Of a stretch of DNA of 64,000 bases, positions 32,143 through 45,219 are shown one piece after another (position 1 is the first letter of the stretch; each line of letters begins with the position of its first letter). The notes below the pieces were generated by a model, which saw only the letters and a program-made list of their open reading frames with translations, was not told the origin of the DNA and did not search any database. The translations under genes were made by a program, and so were the position numbers. Source of the DNA: Gemmatimonadales bacterium (GTDB lineage Bacteria; Gemmatimonadota; Gemmatimonadetes; Gemmatimonadales; GWC2-71-9); assembly GCA_036279355.1 (NCBI GenBank), contig DASUJH010000047.1, positions 1 through 64,000 on the forward strand, read 5' to 3'.

Positions 32143-34770
32143 ATGGCCACGTTCCTGAAGGGTCTGCGCCGCCCGGGCGGCGAGTCGGTGAGCACCGTTG
32201 CGGCGCATCCGTCCCATAATGGAAACGGGAACGGGGCGATGATGCCCGGCCAGGCAGCGCTCGAAAAGCTCGTGGCGCGGGCCGAGGCGGCCGCCGAGCA
32301 GCTCCGCTCGCTCGACACGGTGACCGAGACGGCTGCCGCGCTCGAGGCGATGCAGGAGCGATTCGCCTCGGTCGAGCAGCAGCTCGCGGCGCTCGAGGGG
32401 CTGGCTCAGCGGCTGGCGGGAGCCGAGGCGCAGGCGGAGCGGGTGACCAAGGCATCCGAGGAGATGGCGGCAATCGAAGGGCGGCTCGGCGAAGTGGGCG
32501 AGAAGGTGGACAGCGCAATGGCGCTCCGCGCCGACCTCGATCAGTTCCTGGGTGACCGGAGCCCGATGGCAGCGCTCCGCGGCGAGACCGACGCGCTCCG
32601 CACCCAGCTCGCCGAGCTGGCCGAGAACATCGGCCGCATGCGCGACCAGTCCGACGACGCGCTGAGCGCCCATCGCCACGCCACCTCCCGGCTCGAGAGC
32701 TTCGACGAGGAGCACCAGGCGGCCGCGAGCCGGCTGGAAGAGGTCGTCCGCCAGGTCCAATCCGTCGAGCGCTCGGTCGAGCCGATCAGCCGCGCCATCG
32801 ATTCCATCCCCAACGTCCAGCACCAGCTCGCCGTGGTGAAGGCGCTCGCGGATCAGGTGGCCCAGAAGGCCGCCGCCCTCGAGCAGCAGCGCGAGGCGGT
32901 CGAGCGCGCCGCGAGCCAGATCTCCCAGCTCACCCGGCTCGACCGCGAGCTGGACACCTGGCTTCGCCGGCAGGAAGAGCAGATCCGCCGCTTCGGCGCG
33001 ATCGAGGCCAAGATCGCCGAGGTGCAGGCGCTCCACGCCAAGGTGGTGTCGCGCCACGACGAGCTTCAGGCCTCCCAGCAGCACATGGACGAGGGCCACC
33101 GCTCGGCACGTCAGGCCCTCACCGATCTGCGCGAGCAGATGCGGAAGAGCAGCGAGAGCTTCGAGCTGGAGACCCGCGGCCTGCACGCGGTGAGCGAGCG
33201 GGTGGGCGACCTGCGCACCGCGGTGAAGGAGTGCGAGGCGCGGTTTGCCGTGCTCGACGCGGCGAGCCAGGGCACGGCGGCGGTGCAGGCGCAGGTCCGC
33301 ACCCTGAGCGAGCAGGCGGCGGCGCTCGCCGCCGAGCTGGCTCGGCTCACCGAAGAGGCGCGCCGCGCCAGCACCACGCGCGAGGATGCGGAGCGGCTGG
33401 AGCAGCTCGCGACGGAAGTGGCCGAGCGGATGCAGCGCATCGACGCCGTGGCGCCGCAGGTGGATACGGTGACCCAGCAGCTCGCGGCCCTGCAGGGGAG
33501 CCACGAGATGGTGACCGACGGACTGGAACAGGTGAAGCTCGCCTACGCCGAGATGACCCGCCTGCGCGAGAGCCACGGCGAGGTCGAGGCGTGGCTCGCC
33601 AACGCCGAGACGTGGACCCGCAAGGTGCAGACGCAGGTGCGCGAGCTCTCCGGCATGGAGCCGGCGGTCGAGCGGATCCGCGGCGAAGTGGAGCGCGTCA
33701 CGGCCGCCATGGCCGACATCGCCGCGCGGAGCGAGGCGGTGGACGAGATGCACCGGCGCCTGACCGACCTCGGCACCTCGAGCGCCGAGCTCAAGGAGCG
33801 CACCGAGGGGCTGCGCGCGCGGATGGACGGGGCCGAGGGCCGGTTCGTCCAGCTCGCGCGGCAGGCCGAAGAGGCCGAGCTGGTCTCGGACGTGATCAGC
33901 GGCGTCGTGGCCTCGGTGGGCGAGGCGGAGCAGCGGATCGGCGCCGTGGACGGCTCGGTGCGCGCGCTCGAGGCCCGCACCCAGCAGCTCGACGAGCTGG
34001 AGGAGCGGATCCGGCTGCTCGCGCTCGAGGTGGAGCAGCGGCAGGGCGCGCTCGACAAGGCCACCGAGCACCTGAGCCGCGCCTCGGCGCTGCGCAAGGA
34101 GGCGGCCGCCGCGTCGCAGAAGCTGGAGGAGCTGTCGCGCACCATCGGCGGCCAGCTCGAGACGGCCGAGGAACGGGCGCAAGGGCTCGACCGCACCGCC
34201 GAGGATCTCGAGGCCCGCGCCACCGCGCTCAAGCCGATCGAGCGGCAGGTGACCCACTTCGAGGAGCTGCTTGCCCGCTGGCAGTCGGCCCAGACCGAGG
34301 CGGGCCGCGCGCTGGAGCAGACGCTGGCTCGACAGGGCGCGGTGGACGCGCTGGAGAACCAGGTGAAGCACGTCTTCGAGCTGGCCGAGCGCGCGGTGGA
34401 CGGTGTGCAGACCATCGGTGCGGCACGCCACGAGATCGAGGAGGCGCGGGCGCTGCTGGACGACACCCAGTCGCAGTTCCAGGCGGCCGAGGCGGCGCTC
34501 CAGGGCTTCGAGGCGCGCCAGCGCCAGTTGGAGCGCGCCGAGCACCGGCTGGCGCAGGCCGAAGCGCTCGCACTCGACGTGCGCTCCACGGTCGAGTCGC
34601 TGCAGGCGCAGCGCACCGTGGTGGATCATGTGATCGAGCGGGCCGGCGCCCTCGCGTTCCAGATGAAGCAGGCCGAGGCGCTGGTCGATGCCCTGAAGCG
34701 CGAGCGGACGCTCGCCTGCGACCTCAAGGCATCGGTGGCGTCGGTGCGGGAGCCGGACGAGGAGGAGTAG
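32143..34770 (+). CDS. 875-residue coiled-coil protein, function unknown
   Basis: From residue about 30 to the end the protein is almost continuous alpha-helical coiled coil: heptads rich in Leu/Ala at a/d and Glu/Gln/Arg elsewhere (LEALEGLAQRLAGAEAQA; LGEVGEKVDSAMALRADLD). It has no signal peptide, no membrane helix and no ATPase Walker motif, so it is not an SMC protein, though the helical rods look alike. Repeated elements such as VESLQAQRTVVDHV occur near the C-terminus. The ATG at 32143 has GGAG seven bases upstream. The gene is monocistronic by context; the last 47 bp overlap the convergent MFS gene. A cytoskeletal or scaffolding role is only a guess. Confidence 0.83.
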   Translation: MATFLKGLRRPGGESVSTVAAHPSHNGNGNGAMMPGQAALEKLVARAEAAAEQLRSLDTVTETAAALEAMQERFASVEQQLAALEGLAQRLAGAEAQAERVTKASEEMAAIEGRLGEVGEKVDSAMALRADLDQFLGDRSPMAALRGETDALRTQLAELAENIGRMRDQSDDALSAHRHATSRLESFDEEHQAAASRLEEVVRQVQSVERSVEPISRAIDSIPNVQHQLAVVKALADQVAQKAAALEQQREAVERAASQISQLTRLDRELDTWLRRQEEQIRRFGAIEAKIAEVQALHAKVVSRHDELQASQQHMDEGHRSARQALTDLREQMRKSSESFELETRGLHAVSERVGDLRTAVKECEARFAVLDAASQGTAAVQAQVRTLSEQAAALAAELARLTEEARRASTTREDAERLEQLATEVAERMQRIDAVAPQVDTVTQQLAALQGSHEMVTDGLEQVKLAYAEMTRLRESHGEVEAWLANAETWTRKVQTQVRELSGMEPAVERIRGEVERVTAAMADIAARSEAVDEMHRRLTDLGTSSAELKERTEGLRARMDGAEGRFVQLARQAEEAELVSDVISGVVASVGEAEQRIGAVDGSVRALEARTQQLDELEERIRLLALEVEQRQGALDKATEHLSRASALRKEAAAASQKLEELSRTIGGQLETAEERAQGLDRTAEDLEARATALKPIERQVTHFEELLARWQSAQTEAGRALEQTLARQGAVDALENQVKHVFELAERAVDGVQTIGAARHEIEEARALLDDTQSQFQAAEAALQGFEARQRQLERAEHRLAQAEALALDVRSTVESLQAQRTVVDHVIERAGALAFQMKQAEALVDALKRERTLACDLKASVASVREPDEEE

Positions 34771-36022
34771 GTCCGAGCGGCAGGATTCCCCGTGCCTCAT
34801 AGATGGGCCGCGCTTCCTCCCGGAGGCGCGGCAAGCGGGCGGCGAACCAGATTCCGCCGCCCGCGCACGCGATTCCACCCAGCAGAATCGTCTCCGTCGC
34901 CCCGATGTGCTCCGCGATGATCCCCGCGAGCAGGCTGCCGATCGGCGCCGTGCCGAGAAACGCCATCGTGTAGAACGACATCACCCGCCCGCGCAGGTGC
35001 TCGTCCACCAGCGTCTGCAGGATCGTGTTCGTGGAGGCGAGCTGAATCATGAAGCCTGCGCCCACGATCGGCAGGATCGCGAGCGAGAGCACCACGTTTC
35101 GCGAGAACGAGAAGGCGACGAGCGCCAGGCCGAAGACGAGCGCCGCGCCCGCGATCACCCGGCCAAGTCCGAGCACCGACTGCCGCGCGGCCAGATAGAG
35201 GGCGCCGGCGAGCGCGCCGAGTCCTGCCGCGGTCATGAGGAAGCCGTAGGTGTTGGCGCCGCCGTGCAGCACCTTCGTCGCCACGGCGGGCATGAGCACC
35301 GAGTACGGCATGCCCGCCATTCCCACGAGCGCGACCAGCAGCAGCGCCGAGCGGATCGGCATGAACCCCGCCACGTACCGGAAGCCGGCCACCAGCTCCT
35401 CCCGCACCCGCGTCGCGGCCCGGCGCCGCACCGCGGGCGGCAGCCGCATCGCAACCAGCGAGGCGAGCACCGCCACGTACGAGACGGCGTCCAGCAGGAA
35501 ACACCACCCCTCGCCCACCGCGGCGATGAGCAGGCCCGCGACCGACGGGCCGATGATCCTGGCTCCGTTCACCATCGAGGAGTTGAGCGCGATCGCGTTC
35601 GGCAGGTCGGCGTGGTCCTCGACCATGGTGATGACGAACGCCTGCCGCGCCGGCACGTCGAAGGCGTTGATGCAGCCCTGGAACAGCTGCAGCACGAGCA
35701 CCTCGGCCACCGTGATGACGCCGGCGAGGGTGAGCACCGCGAGCGCGAGCGACTGGACCAGCGAGAGCACCTGCGTCACCAGCAGCACTTGGTGCCGGTT
35801 CCACCGGTCCACGTACACGCCGGCGATGGGCGAGAGGAAGAGGGTGGGGATCTGGCCGCAGAACCCGACCAACCCGAGCAGGAACGGCGAGCCGGTGAGG
35901 CGGTACACCAGCCACGCCGTGGCGATCCGCGTGATCCAGGTGCCGACGAGCGAGACGCTCTGGCCGCCGAAGAAGAGCCGGTAGTTGCGGTGCCGGAGCG
36001 CACGCCCGATCTGCGGGGGCAC
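34724..36022 (-). CDS. MFS exporter, EntS/MFS_3 type
   Basis: A 432-residue major facilitator with twelve expected helices. RALRHRNYRLFFGGQSVSLVG begins the protein, and the loop between helices 2 and 3 is DRWNRHQVLLV, the family's D-R-x-x-R pattern. The long central loop and the RGRVMSFYTMAF segment near helix 10 fit the enterobactin-exporter-like MFS_3 subgroup. The GTG at 36022 sits one base beyond the stop of the HAD-HerA gene, so the two are translated in tandem. Substrate unknown. The 3' end overlaps the convergent coiled-coil gene. Confidence 0.86.
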   Translation of the reverse strand: MPPQIGRALRHRNYRLFFGGQSVSLVGTWITRIATAWLVYRLTGSPFLLGLVGFCGQIPTLFLSPIAGVYVDRWNRHQVLLVTQVLSLVQSLALAVLTLAGVITVAEVLVLQLFQGCINAFDVPARQAFVITMVEDHADLPNAIALNSSMVNGARIIGPSVAGLLIAAVGEGWCFLLDAVSYVAVLASLVAMRLPPAVRRRAATRVREELVAGFRYVAGFMPIRSALLLVALVGMAGMPYSVLMPAVATKVLHGGANTYGFLMTAAGLGALAGALYLAARQSVLGLGRVIAGAALVFGLALVAFSFSRNVVLSLAILPIVGAGFMIQLASTNTILQTLVDEHLRGRVMSFYTMAFLGTAPIGSLLAGIIAEHIGATETILLGGIACAGGGIWFAARLPRLREEARPIYEARGILPLGPTPPRPAPAPTPPMP

Positions 36023-36023
36023 G

Positions 36024-37823
36024 CTACGCGGCCGTGTAGCGGCGCTCGATCGCCTCGCGGAGCCGCGCGCGGCTCTGGGCCGCCGAGAGCCCCGCGTCCG
36101 CGGCGATCCGCTCCGCCTCGGCCGCGAGCGGCGGGTCCTTGATCGATTCGCGCAGCCAGCGGGCGTAGTCGCCGCGGCGGAGATGATAGAGCCACGTGGC
36201 GTCGTCGACGCCGTCGCCCACCTGCACGAAAAGTGAAAGATTCTGCGCCCGCAGGTTGAGCCGGGAGTCCGGGCCGCGGAAATAGAAGCTCTTGTCTTCG
36301 CCCAGCTCCCCCTCCGCGTACTTCCGGATGTGACGGCGGCGCTCGGCGGTGGGCGGCTCGCTCGCGAGCACGAACGGCGCGCCGCGGCTGCGCCACCAGA
36401 CGAGCGCTTCGCCCGGTGCGAGCTCGCCCCGCGCGGCCGCCGCATCGGCGGGCGCCGCATCGGCGGGCGCCGCTTCTGCGGGCGCCGCTTCTGCGGGCGC
36501 CGCTTCGCCCAGCGCCTCGCTGAAGGCTCGGAGCGTCTCGCCCGGGTTCGCGCCCACGGCGAGCACCACGTCCACCGTCGCCAGCACCTCGCGCGCGAGC
36601 CCCTCGGGGTGCACCGTGATGAGCAGCAGACCGGAGGGTTGCTCCGGGAGCGTCAGCCCTGCGGCCGCCCAATCCATGGGCAGGAGGTGATGGGCTTCGT
36701 CGAGCGCGATCCAGTGCGGCCGGCCGGTGCGCGCGCGCAGATCGTCGAGCGCGGTGAAGAGCCGCTCGAAAAATTCCGGGCGGTCGCCGAGCCCCACGCC
36801 GAGAAGATTGACGACGCAGTTGCGGCCGGGGCGACTGATGACGTCGGTCACCTCGTGCACGAGCGGTGCCCGCTCGGTGCCGCCGAGCTGGATGGCGGGC
36901 TCGAAGCTGTCGTAGTCGCCCTCGGGATCGATGACGCACACCTGGTAGCCGGCGCCGGTGAGCCGCTCCAGAAAGCCGGTGGCGAGCGTCGACTTTCCGC
37001 TGCCGGACGTGCCGGCGAGCAGCACGTTGATGCCGTAGGCGGGGAGTCGCACCTCGGTCTCGCCCGCTCCGTTGCCGCCGCTCCCGCCGTGCTCGCCGCC
37101 GCGCTCGCGCCGGCCGAGCAGCACCTCGTGCCGTGAGAGGCGGGGCGCCAGCTCGGCCAGGTCCGAGGTCACCAGCGCGTCGATCAGCTCGACGACGCCG
37201 GCGCCGCGCTCGCCGCGCGTCACCAGATCCGCCTGCGCCTTCACGGTGGGCACCGCGTTGGCCACGGCCACCGCACACTCGCTCATTCGCAGGAACGCGT
37301 GGTCGTTCTCCGCATCGCCCACGCCGGCCACGTTGTGGGGCGAGAGGCGCAGCTCGTCGAGCGCGGTCGCGAGGCCGGTCGCCTTGTTCACGCCCGAGGG
37401 CAACACCATCACGGCGCCCTTGTTGAAGATCACCTGCAGCTCGAGCCCCAGCTCGCGGATCACCTCGATCACCGTCCGCTCGTGCGGCTCGCGGGTGGCG
37501 ACGATGGCGCGCCCCACGCCGAGCGGGGCCACGCCGCGCGCGCGGAGCGCCTCCACGAACGCCGCGTTGGGCGCGCCGGCGAGCACGCGCGCCTCGCGCG
37601 TCGAGGGCGCATAGATTACGGCGCCATTCTCCGCGACGATCCGGTCGCAGAGATCGGCGTGCGGAAAGGCACGGAGCACGTCCTCGAGCTCACGTCCGGT
37701 GACCAGCACGATGCGCCGTCCCGAACGGCGCAGCCGAGTGAGCGCGGCGACCGTTGCGTCGTCCACGGCACCGCCGTGGGCGAGGGTGCCGTCGTAATCG
37801 CACGCCAGGGCATGATAGCGCAT
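36024..37823 (-). CDS. HAD-IIB (Cof-type) phosphatase fused to HerA/DUF87-like ATPase
   Basis: A 599-residue fusion. Residues 1-215 are a HAD phosphatase: DYDGT (9-13), VTGRE (41-45), Lys in VNKATG (about 147) and GVGDAEND (167-174), all four catalytic motifs intact. Residues about 265-430 are a P-loop ATPase: Walker A GTSGSGKST (271-279), DPEGDY (299-304), Walker B IALDEAHH (372-379). An Ala/Pro/Glu linker of tandem EAAPA units (440-462) leads to a C-terminal domain with WLYHLRRGDYARWL (544-557), a pattern recalling DUF5752-type tails. The ATPase part is close to HerA/VirB4-type helicases, but no nuclease partner is near. The downstream MFS gene is coupled. What the phosphatase and motor do together is not known to me. 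Confidence 0.86.
   Translation of the reverse strand: MRYHALACDYDGTLAHGGAVDDATVAALTRLRRSGRRIVLVTGRELEDVLRAFPHADLCDRIVAENGAVIYAPSTREARVLAGAPNAAFVEALRARGVAPLGVGRAIVATREPHERTVIEVIRELGLELQVIFNKGAVMVLPSGVNKATGLATALDELRLSPHNVAGVGDAENDHAFLRMSECAVAVANAVPTVKAQADLVTRGERGAGVVELIDALVTSDLAELAPRLSRHEVLLGRRERGGEHGGSGGNGAGETEVRLPAYGINVLLAGTSGSGKSTLATGFLERLTGAGYQVCVIDPEGDYDSFEPAIQLGGTERAPLVHEVTDVISRPGRNCVVNLLGVGLGDRPEFFERLFTALDDLRARTGRPHWIALDEAHHLLPMDWAAAGLTLPEQPSGLLLITVHPEGLAREVLATVDVVLAVGANPGETLRAFSEALGEAAPAEAAPAEAAPADAAPADAAAARGELAPGEALVWWRSRGAPFVLASEPPTAERRRHIRKYAEGELGEDKSFYFRGPDSRLNLRAQNLSLFVQVGDGVDDATWLYHLRRGDYARWLRESIKDPPLAAEAERIAADAGLSAAQSRARLREAIERRYTAA
36441..36507 (-). repeat. 15-bp tandem repeat in the HAD-HerA linker
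   Basis: Four units of CGC(A/T)TC(G/T)GCGGGCGC (36441-36500) plus a partial fifth encode the Ala/Pro/Glu/Asp linker. The first two and the second two units are identical to each other, which indicates recent duplication; the length of the linker probably varies between strains. Confidence 0.75.
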
Positions 37824-40867: not shown

Positions 40868-43800
40868 TCACACCTCCAGCCGATCCCCCGGTCGCGCCAC
40901 CAGCGCGTAGAGCACCGGCATCAGCAGCACGCTGATGAGGAGCCGCGAGAACATTCCGCCCACGATCACCATGGCGAACGGGCGCTGCGAATCGGTGCCG
41001 ACGCCCGTCGCGAGCGCCGCCGGCAGGAGGCCGAGCGCCGCGACCAGCGCCGTCATCATGATCGGTCGGAGCCGGAGCAATGCCGCCTCGCGCGTCGCGT
41101 CGGCAATGGCGGCCCCGCCCCGCCTCAGCTCGTTGGCGTAGGAGATGTACACCACCGCGGTCTGGACCGACACGCCGAAGAGCGCGAGGAACCCGATCCC
41201 GGACGAGACCGAGAACGGCGTGCCCGTGAACGCGAGCGCCAGAATCCCGCCCACCGGCGCCGTGAGCAGCACACCGAGCACCGTGATGACCGGGAACTTG
41301 AAGTTGCTGTAGAGCGCGAACAGGATGAGGAAGATGAGAAACAGCGTGAGCGGCAGCACCAGCCGGAGCTGCGCGCGCGACGCCGTGTACTCCTGGTACT
41401 CGCCGCCCCACACCACGCGGTAGCCCGACGGAATCCGCACCGCGGCAGCCACCCGCTCGCGCGCCTCGTTCACCGCGCCGGCGAGGTCCCGCCCCTCGAC
41501 CGAATACTGGATTCCGATGAACCGCGAGTTGTCCTGCCGGTAGATGAACGACGCGCCGCTCGCCACCCGGATGACGGCCAACTCCTTGAGCGGCACCTGC
41601 TGGCCGTTCGGCGTCGCCACGAGGATGTTGCCGATGGCCTCCGGCGATTCGCGGAACTGCGGCTCGAGCCGCACGACGAGATCGAACAGCCGCTCGCCCT
41701 GCACCACCTGGGTGGCCGCCACGCCGCCCACCGCGGCCTCGATCAGCTTGTTGACGTCGTCCACGTTGAGCCCATAGCGCGCGATCCGCGCCCGGTCCGG
41801 CGTCACCGTGAGGCTGGGCTGCCCCAGCTCCTGCACCAGCGTGACGTGGGTGATGCCGCGCACCTGCTCCAGCGCGTGCTTCACCTCCTTGCCCTTGTGC
41901 TCGAGCGTCACGAGGTCGGGGCCGAAGAGCTTCACGTCGAGCGCGCTCTTGAGCCCGGTCTCCGCCTCGTCCACCGCGTCTTCCGCCGGCTGCGTGTAAT
42001 TGAAGATGATGCCGGGAAACGTCGTGAGCTTGGCGTTGATCGCATCGATCAGCTCCTGCTTCGAGCGGTAGGCGCCGTGCCATTGGCCGTACGGCTTGAG
42101 TCCGACGTAGAACTCGGCGTTGAAGAAGCCGGTCGGGTCGGTGCCGTCGTCGTCGCGCCCGTGCTCGTTGGCCACCACGGTCACTTCGGGGAACGAGCGC
42201 AGCACGGCGCGGATCTGCGGCACGATCCGGGACGATTCGTCGAAGGAGATGGTGTACGGCATCGTGGCCCGCACCCAGATGGCTCCCTCGTCGAGATGCG
42301 GCATGAACTCGGCGCCAAGCCCGAGCGCCACCACGAGCGACGCGGCGAAAATCACGGTCGAAACGACGACGGTAGCCCACGGCCGCGCGAGGCAGCGGTC
42401 GAGCGCGCGCTCATAGAGGCGCCGAATCGCCTCGAACATGGGGTTCCGCCGCTCCCGCACTCCGCGGCCCAGCACCCACGCCGAAAGCACCGGGAGCAGC
42501 GTGAGGGTCAGGATGAGCGAGCCGATGAGCGCGAAGATCGTGGTGTCCGCCATCGGCGAGAAGAGCTTGCCGGACGGGCCCGACAGCACGTAGATCGGCA
42601 GGAAGCCCGCCACGATCACCGCCACCGCGTAAAAGATCGGCCGGTCCACCTCGGCCGCCGCCGCCGCGATCACCTCGGTGATGTCGTACGCCGTGCCGGC
42701 CCTGAGCGCGAGCTGGCGGTGGATGTTCTCCACCATCACCACCGCGCCGTCCACCAGGATGCCGAAGTCGATGGCGCCGATCGAGAGCAGGTTGGCCGGG
42801 ATGTGCTTGAGGTCGAGGCAGATGAAGGCGAAGAGCAGCGAGAGCGGTATGGTGACCGCGACGATGAGCCCCGCGCGCACGTCGTACAGGAAGAGGATCA
42901 GCACCGCGACGACCAGCACGATGCCGCGCAGCAAGTTGTCCTCGACCGTGCGCGTGGTGAGCGCCACCAGGTCGCTCCGGTCGTAGAATGGCCGGATCTT
43001 CACGTCCTTGGGCAGGATGCTGTCGTTGAGCTCGCGGGTCTTGGCCTCGACGCCCTTGAGCACCGTCTGGGCCTGCTCGCCCCGGCGCAGCCGGATGATG
43101 CCTTCCACCGCGTCGTCCCGCTCGTTGAAGCCGAACTGGCCGAGCCGCGGCGCGTGGCCGATCACGACCTCGCCCACGTTCTTCACCAGCACCGGGACGC
43201 CGTTCCGGTTGGCGAGGACGACGTCGCCGATGTCGTCGGTGGTGGCGACGCGGCCGAGGCCGCGCACATAGTAGAACTGCCCGCCCTCCGAGTAGAAGCC
43301 ACCGCCCGCGTTGGCGTTGTTGGCAGCCAGCGCGTCGACCACGTTCGACACCGAGAGGCCGGCGCCCGCGAGGCGCGCGGGATCGAGCAGCACCTGGTAC
43401 TGCATCGTCTCGCCGCCGAGCGGTGAGTCGTCCGCCACGCCGGGCACCGAGCGGTACTGCCGGACGATCACCCAGTCGTCGATGATCTTGAGCTCCATGG
43501 CGCTGCGGTCGGGGCTGTCCAGCACGTAGCGGTACACCAGCCCTGAGGGCGAGGAAAGCGGCGAAATCGATGGTGTCACGCCCGCCGGCAGCTCGGCGTC
43601 AGGCAGCCGCTCGAACGCCTGCTGCCGCACGAAGTAGTTGTCCGCGCCGTCCTCGAAGGTGAGCCGCACGTCGGAGAGCCCGTAGAGCGAAATCGAGCGG
43701 ACGACCTTGAGCTGGGGCAATCCGTTGAGCTCGATCTCGAGCGGCACGGTGATGAGCCGCTCCACCTCCTCGGCCGCGTGGCCGGGCCACTGGGTGATGA

Positions 43801-43969
43801 CCTCCACCATCGGCGGCGAGAGATCGGGGTACGCATCCACCGGAAGGCGGGAAAACGACCACGCGCCGACCGCCGCGATGAGCACGGTGAAGAGCCCCAC
43901 CACGAACCGCTGGCGCAGCGAGGCCGCGACCAGCCGGTGGATGATCGAGGGTGTGGCGTCGCCGTTCAT
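40868..43969 (-). CDS. Heavy-metal RND efflux pump, CusA/CzcA-like
   Basis: A 1033-residue inner-membrane proton antiporter with the full RND plan: helix 1, large periplasmic loop, helices 2-6, second loop and helices 7-12. HME-RND markers are LPVDAYPDLSPPMVEVI near the N-terminus, IGAIDFGILVDGAVVMVENI around helix 4 (the D-F-G-x-x-V-D-G motif) and GVSVQTAVVYISYANE in helix 10. It exports a metal cation (Cu/Ag or Co/Zn/Cd; the sequence does not settle which) through the TolC partner. The ATG overlaps the adaptor's stop (ATGA). This is the last gene of the four-gene efflux operon. Confidence 0.93.
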   Translation of the reverse strand: MNGDATPSIIHRLVAASLRQRFVVGLFTVLIAAVGAWSFSRLPVDAYPDLSPPMVEVITQWPGHAAEEVERLITVPLEIELNGLPQLKVVRSISLYGLSDVRLTFEDGADNYFVRQQAFERLPDAELPAGVTPSISPLSSPSGLVYRYVLDSPDRSAMELKIIDDWVIVRQYRSVPGVADDSPLGGETMQYQVLLDPARLAGAGLSVSNVVDALAANNANAGGGFYSEGGQFYYVRGLGRVATTDDIGDVVLANRNGVPVLVKNVGEVVIGHAPRLGQFGFNERDDAVEGIIRLRRGEQAQTVLKGVEAKTRELNDSILPKDVKIRPFYDRSDLVALTTRTVEDNLLRGIVLVVAVLILFLYDVRAGLIVAVTIPLSLLFAFICLDLKHIPANLLSIGAIDFGILVDGAVVMVENIHRQLALRAGTAYDITEVIAAAAAEVDRPIFYAVAVIVAGFLPIYVLSGPSGKLFSPMADTTIFALIGSLILTLTLLPVLSAWVLGRGVRERRNPMFEAIRRLYERALDRCLARPWATVVVSTVIFAASLVVALGLGAEFMPHLDEGAIWVRATMPYTISFDESSRIVPQIRAVLRSFPEVTVVANEHGRDDDGTDPTGFFNAEFYVGLKPYGQWHGAYRSKQELIDAINAKLTTFPGIIFNYTQPAEDAVDEAETGLKSALDVKLFGPDLVTLEHKGKEVKHALEQVRGITHVTLVQELGQPSLTVTPDRARIARYGLNVDDVNKLIEAAVGGVAATQVVQGERLFDLVVRLEPQFRESPEAIGNILVATPNGQQVPLKELAVIRVASGASFIYRQDNSRFIGIQYSVEGRDLAGAVNEARERVAAAVRIPSGYRVVWGGEYQEYTASRAQLRLVLPLTLFLIFLILFALYSNFKFPVITVLGVLLTAPVGGILALAFTGTPFSVSSGIGFLALFGVSVQTAVVYISYANELRRGGAAIADATREAALLRLRPIMMTALVAALGLLPAALATGVGTDSQRPFAMVIVGGMFSRLLISVLLMPVLYALVARPGDRLEV

Positions 43970-45219
43970 TGATTTTCCGCGAACTGCATGAAGAGCCCGC
44001 CCTGGGTCACGATCCGGTCGCCCGCGGCGAGACCGCCGGTGATCTCGAACTGTGCGCCAAGGCGGTCGCCCACGTGCGCGCCGAGCTGCACCGGCCGCCG
44101 CGCGTAGCCGCCGCCAGGCAGCGCGAGGTACACGAACGGCAGGTTGTCCGCGTCGCGCAGCACGGCGGAGGCCGGCACGACGAGGCCCGTCCGGGGCCGG
44201 TGCGAGCGGATCGACACCCGCACGAACATGTCGCGCTTGAGGGTGCGGTCCGGATTGGGCGTGAGCACGCGGACCGCCGTCGCGCGGGTATTGGGATCGA
44301 CCAGCGCGCCGACGTAGGTGACGACCCCCGGGTACGCCCGCGTCGTGTCGCCGGTGAGCCGCACCTCGGCCGAGTCGCCGGTGGCGACGTAGGGCAGGTC
44401 GCCCTCGAACACGTTGGCCATCGCCCACACGCTCGAGAGATCGGCGACGGTAAAGCAGGGCGTCGTGTTGGCCTGGAGGAGCTGGCCCGGCGTGATGAGC
44501 CGCTCGACCACCGTGCCCGAGATCGGCGCGCGCACCACGCCTTGCGCGCCCCGCGGCGCGCGGTGCTGGCGGATCGCGTCGAGGCCGGCCGAGTCCACGC
44601 CGAGCGAGCGGAGCTGCTCGAGCGCCGCAGCCCGGTCGGCGGCGGCCGTGGCCGCGTCGGTCTGGGCCTGTTCCAGGTCTCGGCGCGCGAGCGCGTCGTG
44701 CTGGAAGAGCTGCGCGTCGAGATCGGCGATGCGCTGGAGATTGGCGGCCGTGGCCTCCGCCTTCATGTAGCCGGCGACCGCGGCCGCGTAGTCGGGCGAT
44801 GCGACGAGCGCCAGCGCATCTCCGCGCCGCACCCGCGCGCCCGGCTCTACCAGCAGGCGCGACACCGGACCGGAAATCGGCGCCAGGACCTGGGTGCTGA
44901 TGTCCCCGTTGAACGCGACCGTGCCGGTTACTTCAACCGTCGGGTGGAAGGTGGATGACTTCACCTCCGTCACCTGAAGCCGCGCCCGCTGCTCCGCGGT
45001 GAGGCTGTCGGTGGCCGCCGTGGAGTGCGCGGCCCCCCCGCCGGTATCGGACCGCGCCGTAGCCCCGCCCGCAGCGGCATGGCCCGCCTCCGCGGCGTCC
45101 GCTCCGGCGCCGTCGTGCGGGCCGCATCCGGCCACCGCGAGCGCGGCCGCCGCACCGAGAGCCCGCCACACCGGCGCGCGCCATCTCCACCCGCGCCGCA
45201 TCTTCACCCTAGTGATCAT
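43966..45219 (-). CDS. Efflux RND periplasmic adaptor, CusB/CzcB-like lipoprotein
   Basis: A 417-residue membrane-fusion protein. A lipobox (AVAGCG) follows the N-terminal helix; a Gly/Ala/His/Asp-rich linker (GPHDGAGADAAEAGHAAAG) may bind metal. VTGTVAFNGDISTQVLAPISGPVSRL begins the barrel-sandwich part, a long helical hairpin (MKAEATAANLQRIADLDAQ) and LVVPASAVLRDADN closes the beta-barrel. The ATG at 45219 has GGAG 6 bases before it and overlaps the TolC gene's stop; ATGs at 45225 and 45201 are alternatives. It connects the pump to the outer-membrane channel. Confidence 0.9.
   Translation of the reverse strand: MITRVKMRRGWRWRAPVWRALGAAAALAVAGCGPHDGAGADAAEAGHAAAGGATARSDTGGGAAHSTAATDSLTAEQRARLQVTEVKSSTFHPTVEVTGTVAFNGDISTQVLAPISGPVSRLLVEPGARVRRGDALALVASPDYAAAVAGYMKAEATAANLQRIADLDAQLFQHDALARRDLEQAQTDAATAAADRAAALEQLRSLGVDSAGLDAIRQHRAPRGAQGVVRAPISGTVVERLITPGQLLQANTTPCFTVADLSSVWAMANVFEGDLPYVATGDSAEVRLTGDTTRAYPGVVTYVGALVDPNTRATAVRVLTPNPDRTLKRDMFVRVSIRSHRPRTGLVVPASAVLRDADNLPFVYLALPGGGYARRPVQLGAHVGDRLGAQFEITGGLAAGDRIVTQGGLFMQFAENQ

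Follow-up and report, generated by a model that had tools for sequence, protein, structure and literature searches.

An intact fusion of a HAD-IIB phosphatase, a HerA-like ATPase and a probable DUF5752/OrfY-type unit belongs to a widespread bacterial family

What a phosphatase and a HerA-like ATPase do together in one polypeptide is the question raised by a gene in the window, a stretch of 64,000 nucleotides from a Gemmatimonadales bacterium (contig DASUJH010000047.1). The initial annotation read the gene as an intact 599-residue fusion of the two enzymes with all HAD and Walker motifs in place, and offered a mobile or defence factor, or a regulator of metabolite export, as its possible role.

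Translation of the gene gave an uninterrupted open reading frame of 599 codons that begins MRYHALACDYDGTLA. Pfam and NCBIfam profiles confirmed the fusion: the N-terminal half matched PF08282 and HAD-SF-IIB, and the P-loop half matched DUF87/HerA. The AlphaFold2 model of the full-length protein had a mean pLDDT of 92.2 and a pTM of 0.87, and the C-terminal half modelled separately had values of 90.0 and 0.83. A frame error or a chimeric origin of the reading frame was ruled out, as 78 of the 80 relatives retained for comparison align with it end to end. The protein is an intact three-part fusion of a phosphatase, a HerA-like ATPase and a probable DUF5752/OrfY-type unit (Table 1), and it is a variant assembled from parts that are themselves of known kinds.

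Table 1. Positions of the fusion gene, its parts and its downstream neighbour in the window
Feature	Position	Strand	Basis
Whole fusion gene: HAD-IIB phosphatase, HerA-like ATPase and DUF5752-type unit (599 aa + stop)	36024..37823	(-)	Translation, domain profiles, AlphaFold2
HAD-IIB phosphatase domain, residues 1-222 (D9, D11, T42, K147, D170, D174)	37158..37823	(-)	PF08282, TIGR01484, Foldseek
Compact HerA/FtsK-superfamily ATPase domain, about residues 233-490	36354..37127	(-)	PF01935 above cut-off, DUF87 in relatives, Foldseek
Walker A GTSGSGKS, residues 271-278	36990..37013	(-)	G271, G276, K277 invariant in 79 sequences
Walker B WIALDE, residues 371-376, then HerA-like AHH	36696..36713	(-)	E376 in 79/79, D375 in 78/79
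15-bp x 5.0-copy tandem repeat, Ala-Pro-rich enlarged loop within the ATPase domain	36433..36507	(-)	Repeat finding, loop-length comparison, low pLDDT
Putative DUF5752/OrfY-type unit, residues 497-599 (FxF, A-x-N-L-x-x-F, H547, D552, W556)	36027..36335	(-)	PF19027 in L056, 4cso profile match, hhalign
MFS_3 transporter (432 aa) starting after a one-base gap; not counted as part of the system	34724..36022	(-)	PF05977, GTG start at 36022

The N-terminal domain matched PF08282 with an E-value of 2.4e-26 and scored 82.3 bits against the HAD-SF-IIB model, above the cut-off of 41.8. The HAD motifs were all present: the DxD nucleophile, the Thr/Ser of motif II, the Lys of motif III and the GDxxND of motif IV. 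Its best structural match in Foldseek was 1wr8 (PH1421; E 7.6e-18). The description of the domain as a Cof-type phosphatase holds at the level of HAD-IIB, but Cof is a loose label, since the score of 85.8 bits is below the curated cut-off of 137. The scores against the phosphoglycolate phosphatase models TIGR01487 (93.2 versus 122.75) and PRK01158 (94.1 versus 198) were also below cut-off. C2-capped HAD-IIB enzymes act mostly on small molecules, which their caps favour.

Among 84,980 species genomes scanned, 367 relatives were confirmed, spread over many phyla; 80 were retained for comparison, and 79 sequences entered the residue alignment. The retained relatives, with 47-61% identity in the best segment, include members of the Cyanobacteriota, Planctomycetota, Nitrospirota, Acidobacteriota, Chloroflexota, Actinomycetota, Pseudomonadota, Myxococcota, Bacteroidota, Ignavibacteriota and Melainabacteria. 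All span essentially the whole protein except two (L043 and L047), which stop at residues 555 and 569 at a contig end. The fusion is a widespread bacterial family and no local oddity. Residues D9, D11, K147, D170, D174, G276, K277, D299, E376, R497, F513, F515 and H547 were invariant in the 79 aligned sequences, and T42 was kept in 77, with Ser in the other two. Since the HAD and Walker residues are essentially invariant, the two catalytic centres appear to have been selected together in one chain. In RefSeq, the plasmid copies carry only a HAD label ("HAD-IIB family hydrolase", "HAD hydrolase family protein" or "HAD family hydrolase"). The papers searched contain no description of the HAD–HerA–DUF5752 architecture or its function, in line with the initial annotation, which knew of none for the pairing.

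The family is patchily distributed. A match was found in 11 of 395 genomes of the window's phylum, six of them fused and five HAD-only, and in 17 of 99 genomes of the Nostocaceae, where ten copies were full-length and the others HAD-only, truncated or broken. This patchy presence, together with the HAD-only and broken copies, indicates that the fusion gene is accessory. Seven of eight reference genomes checked carried a single copy, and the eighth added a weak HAD-only match. The broken or truncated copies in the Nostocaceae (G451, G463, G472 and G496) suggest decay of an accessory gene in some cyanobacteria. Among four HAD-only relatives (L103-L106), the copies of L103, L104 and L106 lie after a dapF-like (diaminopimelate epimerase) gene. 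No certain stand-alone ATPase half was found in 298 genomes; one candidate (G238) was a sequence cut by a contig end, and another (G264) was a different HerA-like protein.

In the tree, the other fused copies of the same class formed a distant clade with full support, and the window copy fell among other phyla with weak local support, a placement that suggests horizontal transfer. The GC3 of the fusion gene is ordinary (0.90, against a window mean of 0.89), so any transfer would not be recent, or the donor genome would be similar. For the proposal that the two halves form a genuine functional pair beside a transporter, the comparison of genomes cuts both ways: the active residues are kept and many phyla have the fusion, but both the same phylum and the Nostocaceae also contain HAD-only relatives, and the transporter gene is not a conserved neighbour.

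The C-terminal domain, recognized from the start by its H-L-x-x-G-D-Y-x-x-W motif, proved real, and residues 497-599 were identified from profile comparisons as a probable single DUF5752/OrfY-type unit. Against PF19027 (cut-off 23), the window protein scored 12.5 bits, two relatives (L008 and L080) scored 13.6-14.3 and the Planobispora relative L056 scored 23.2 (E 5e-5), just over the cut-off. The domain profile matched OrfY (PDB 4cso) with an E-value of 1.2e-11, in two stretches of the 4cso chain. A search for DUF5752 in the window's phylum revealed two further architectures, a stand-alone protein and a REC-DUF5752-PPDK_N protein. In hhalign, the unit of the fusion matched the unit of the REC-PPDK_N proteins with 97.4% probability, and its profile matched a single stand-alone DUF5752 sequence (from genome G018) weakly, at 24.5%; the link to stand-alone DUF5752 proteins is thus carried by the OrfY and Pfam matches. 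In G018, a genome of the same family as the window's, the stand-alone DUF5752 gene lies directly upstream of a TreT trehalose synthase gene. At L124:7901-9791, a tandem DUF5752 protein directly precedes TreT, and the surrounding genes include GlgC, sugar ABC permeases and a likely GH57 enzyme. Five loci (L123, L128, L129, L130 and L135) encode, in their central parts, proteins of about 1000 residues in which one DUF5752 unit accompanies a receiver-like domain and a PPDK_N ATP-binding domain, an architecture read from a Pfam scan of one protein and assigned to the remaining ones by their common unit sequence.

We tentatively propose that the fusion is an ATP-controlled phosphatase of a small phosphometabolite, in which the HerA-like domain assembles to exert the control and the DUF5752 unit does the tuning, a reading that we regard as quite possible. 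The N-terminal C2-capped domain would be a Mg-dependent phosphatase, most likely acting on a sugar phosphate or a phosphoglycolate-like compound. The HerA/FtsK-type domain would most likely assemble as a ring or another oligomer, and ATP binding or hydrolysis would serve as a switch on the phosphatase instead of moving DNA. Because DUF5752 occurs beside TreT and inside the REC-PPDK_N proteins, the C-terminal unit would most likely bind or sense a metabolite or dock a partner. The likeness to PH1421, the invariant HAD and Walker residues, the HerA-like fold, the OrfY/DUF5752 matches and the carbohydrate genes near some loci favour this reading. Against it count the scores below the phosphoglycolate phosphatase and Cof cut-offs, the minority of loci with carbohydrate neighbours and the modest structural similarity of the ATPase half. 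The HAD-only relatives also count against it, as they imply that the phosphatase can function without the ATPase half.

The persistence of HAD-only relatives as separate genes would likewise fit an ATPase half that is only an assembly scaffold, with a constitutive phosphatase and irrelevant ATP turnover. We consider this unlikely, because the Walker A lysine and the Walker B glutamate are kept in 79 of 79 sequences, which would be unexpected in an inert scaffold.

It is also rather doubtful that the P-loop domain is a kinase. A kinase and a phosphatase in one chain are a known regulatory design, and the fusion would then set the phosphorylation of one metabolite or protein by a logic like that of PFKFB or HPr kinase/phosphatase; the P-loop gave weak matches to APS kinase and AAA kinase-like models. 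The P-loop NTPase region, from about residue 265, scored 26.7 bits for DUF87/HerA (PF01935; cut-off 23.2). Against the kinase reading, DUF87 was matched by 48 of 49 relatives tested (best E-value 3.6e-12), against 18 for APS kinase (1.4e-4), and the 50 fold matches listed include HerA, B204, EssC and TcpA but no kinases.

HerA is a DNA motor, and the ATPase could accordingly be a true DNA translocase, with the HAD domain serving repair or anti-phage defence by processing DNA or nucleotide phosphates. The closest structural matches of the C-terminal half in Foldseek were indeed HerA-based defence complexes (SIR2/HerA 8wiv, E 1.6e-8, and also 8woc), followed by Sulfolobus HerA (4d2i) and the viral packaging ATPase B204 (4kft), each with E 2.4e-7; the query-normalised TM-scores were modest (0.28-0.47), partly because the ATPase half is much shorter than HerA. 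PADLOC added weak matches of the fusion protein to mads_8 and HerA, at the P-loop level only. The AlphaFold2 models, however, contain no N-terminal HAS barrel: the stretch between the HAD domain and Walker A is only about 40 residues long and holds two short strands. The middle domain is thus HerA-like in its predicted fold, of a shortened HerA/FtsK type, and lacks the testable features that define a HerA DNA translocase. No NurA or other nuclease or effector partner is conserved beside the gene in about 80 loci, no phage homologue was found in a phage search, and no defence gene recurs among the neighbours, where PADLOC mostly reported helicase models (DpdF, BrxH) and none of them in more than 2 of 132. 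With the preference of HAD-IIB caps for small substrates also against it, a DNA translocase is improbable, and the mobile or defence factor suggested at first finds no backing in the phage search or the neighbouring genes.

The tandem repeat reported in the gene is real, but the loop that it encodes lies inside the ATPase domain and does not link the enzyme halves. This Ala-Pro-rich loop has 30 residues in the window protein, compared with 12-13 in most relatives, and was modelled with low pLDDT. It is probably a neutral expansion.

A broader and speculative idea, to which we give little probability, is that DUF5752 is a recurring phosphometabolite module, possibly a phosphoryl carrier by way of its conserved His, that links trehalose synthesis by TreT, the PEP-synthase-like kinase of the REC-DUF5752-PPDK_N proteins and the HAD-HerA fusion. 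In that case the HAD-HerA protein would form a phosphatase complex, driven by ATP, that acts on the module's state or senses it.

The neighbouring genes were taken from a purpose-written gene caller, and 132 immediate neighbours of the relatives were scanned. No gene family occurred in more than 4 of them, the commonest being MgtC, response regulator, TPR and S9 peptidase, and clustering of all open reading frames around the relatives, which gave mostly shadow frames, revealed no conserved operon partner. Some loci have carbohydrate genes nearby (OtsA, debranching enzyme, GT4, GlgX, glycogen phosphorylase and a polyphosphate-glucokinase-like gene), and some have stress genes. Only a minority of loci have such carbohydrate genes, each family occurring at 1-4 of 98 loci in raw counts without a background rate, and the trehalose, glycogen and stress neighbours are suggestive but few. 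At the plasmid loci (L085-L092), several copies lie amid stress genes, examples being Dps, BON, hemerythrin, PRC-barrel, USP, CBS and manganese catalase.

In the window itself, the downstream gene is an MFS transporter as initially described (PF05977, E 1.4e-67), and a single base (36023) separates its start codon from the stop codon of the fusion. That the fusion regulates or feeds this exporter on the same strand is highly improbable and largely refuted by comparison: MFS is absent from the listed neighbour families, with one remote, partial match in 98 loci, so that the spacing stands while the pairing and the exporter-regulator role do not. Elsewhere in the window, the 3' end of the gene for an 875-residue coiled-coil repetitive protein (32143-34770) shares 47 bases with the MFS gene, which is convergent to it, and genes like those of a CzcA/HME-type RND efflux pump and its HlyD-family partner lie at 40868-45171.

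The fusion represents a three-domain family with two strictly conserved active sites that many species keep intact, cyanobacteria, planctomycetes, actinobacteria and proteobacteria among them, and annotation goes no further than "HAD-IIB family hydrolase". Control of the phosphatase by the ATPase, if it occurs, would put the HerA/FtsK fold to use beyond the translocation of DNA and protein. The C-terminal unit connects three otherwise unrelated enzyme architectures and offers a handle on DUF5752.

Among known systems, the archaeal phosphoglycolate phosphatase group of PH1421 (1wr8, TIGR01487) is nearest to the phosphatase by sequence and structure, aligning with residues 1-214 with all catalytic residues kept; the window protein differs in scoring below the equivalog cut-offs and in carrying an ATPase and a DUF5752-type unit on the same chain. 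With the hexameric DNA translocase HerA (DUF87) and the SIR2/HerA defence complexes, the fusion shares the RecA-like core, Walker A, Asp-Pro-x-Gly-Asp, a DEAH-like Walker B and the fold, and we take its post-strand DPEGDY and Walker B DEAHH to resemble the HerA motifs. Unlike in those systems, the ATPase here lacks the HAS barrel, is about half as long and is fused to a phosphatase, with neither a nuclease partner nor a conserved defence context. With DUF5752/OrfY proteins (PF19027, 4cso), the last of which we take to come from Thermoproteus tenax and to be encoded within a treT operon, the fusion's unit has in common A-x-N-L-x-x-F, a conserved His and D-[FY]-x-x-W, whereas the stand-alone proteins have two units instead of one and the window sequence is below the Pfam cut-off. 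The REC-DUF5752-PPDK_N proteins share the C-terminal type of unit with the fusion, and there its companions are a receiver-like domain and a PEP-synthase-like ATP-binding domain instead of HAD and HerA.
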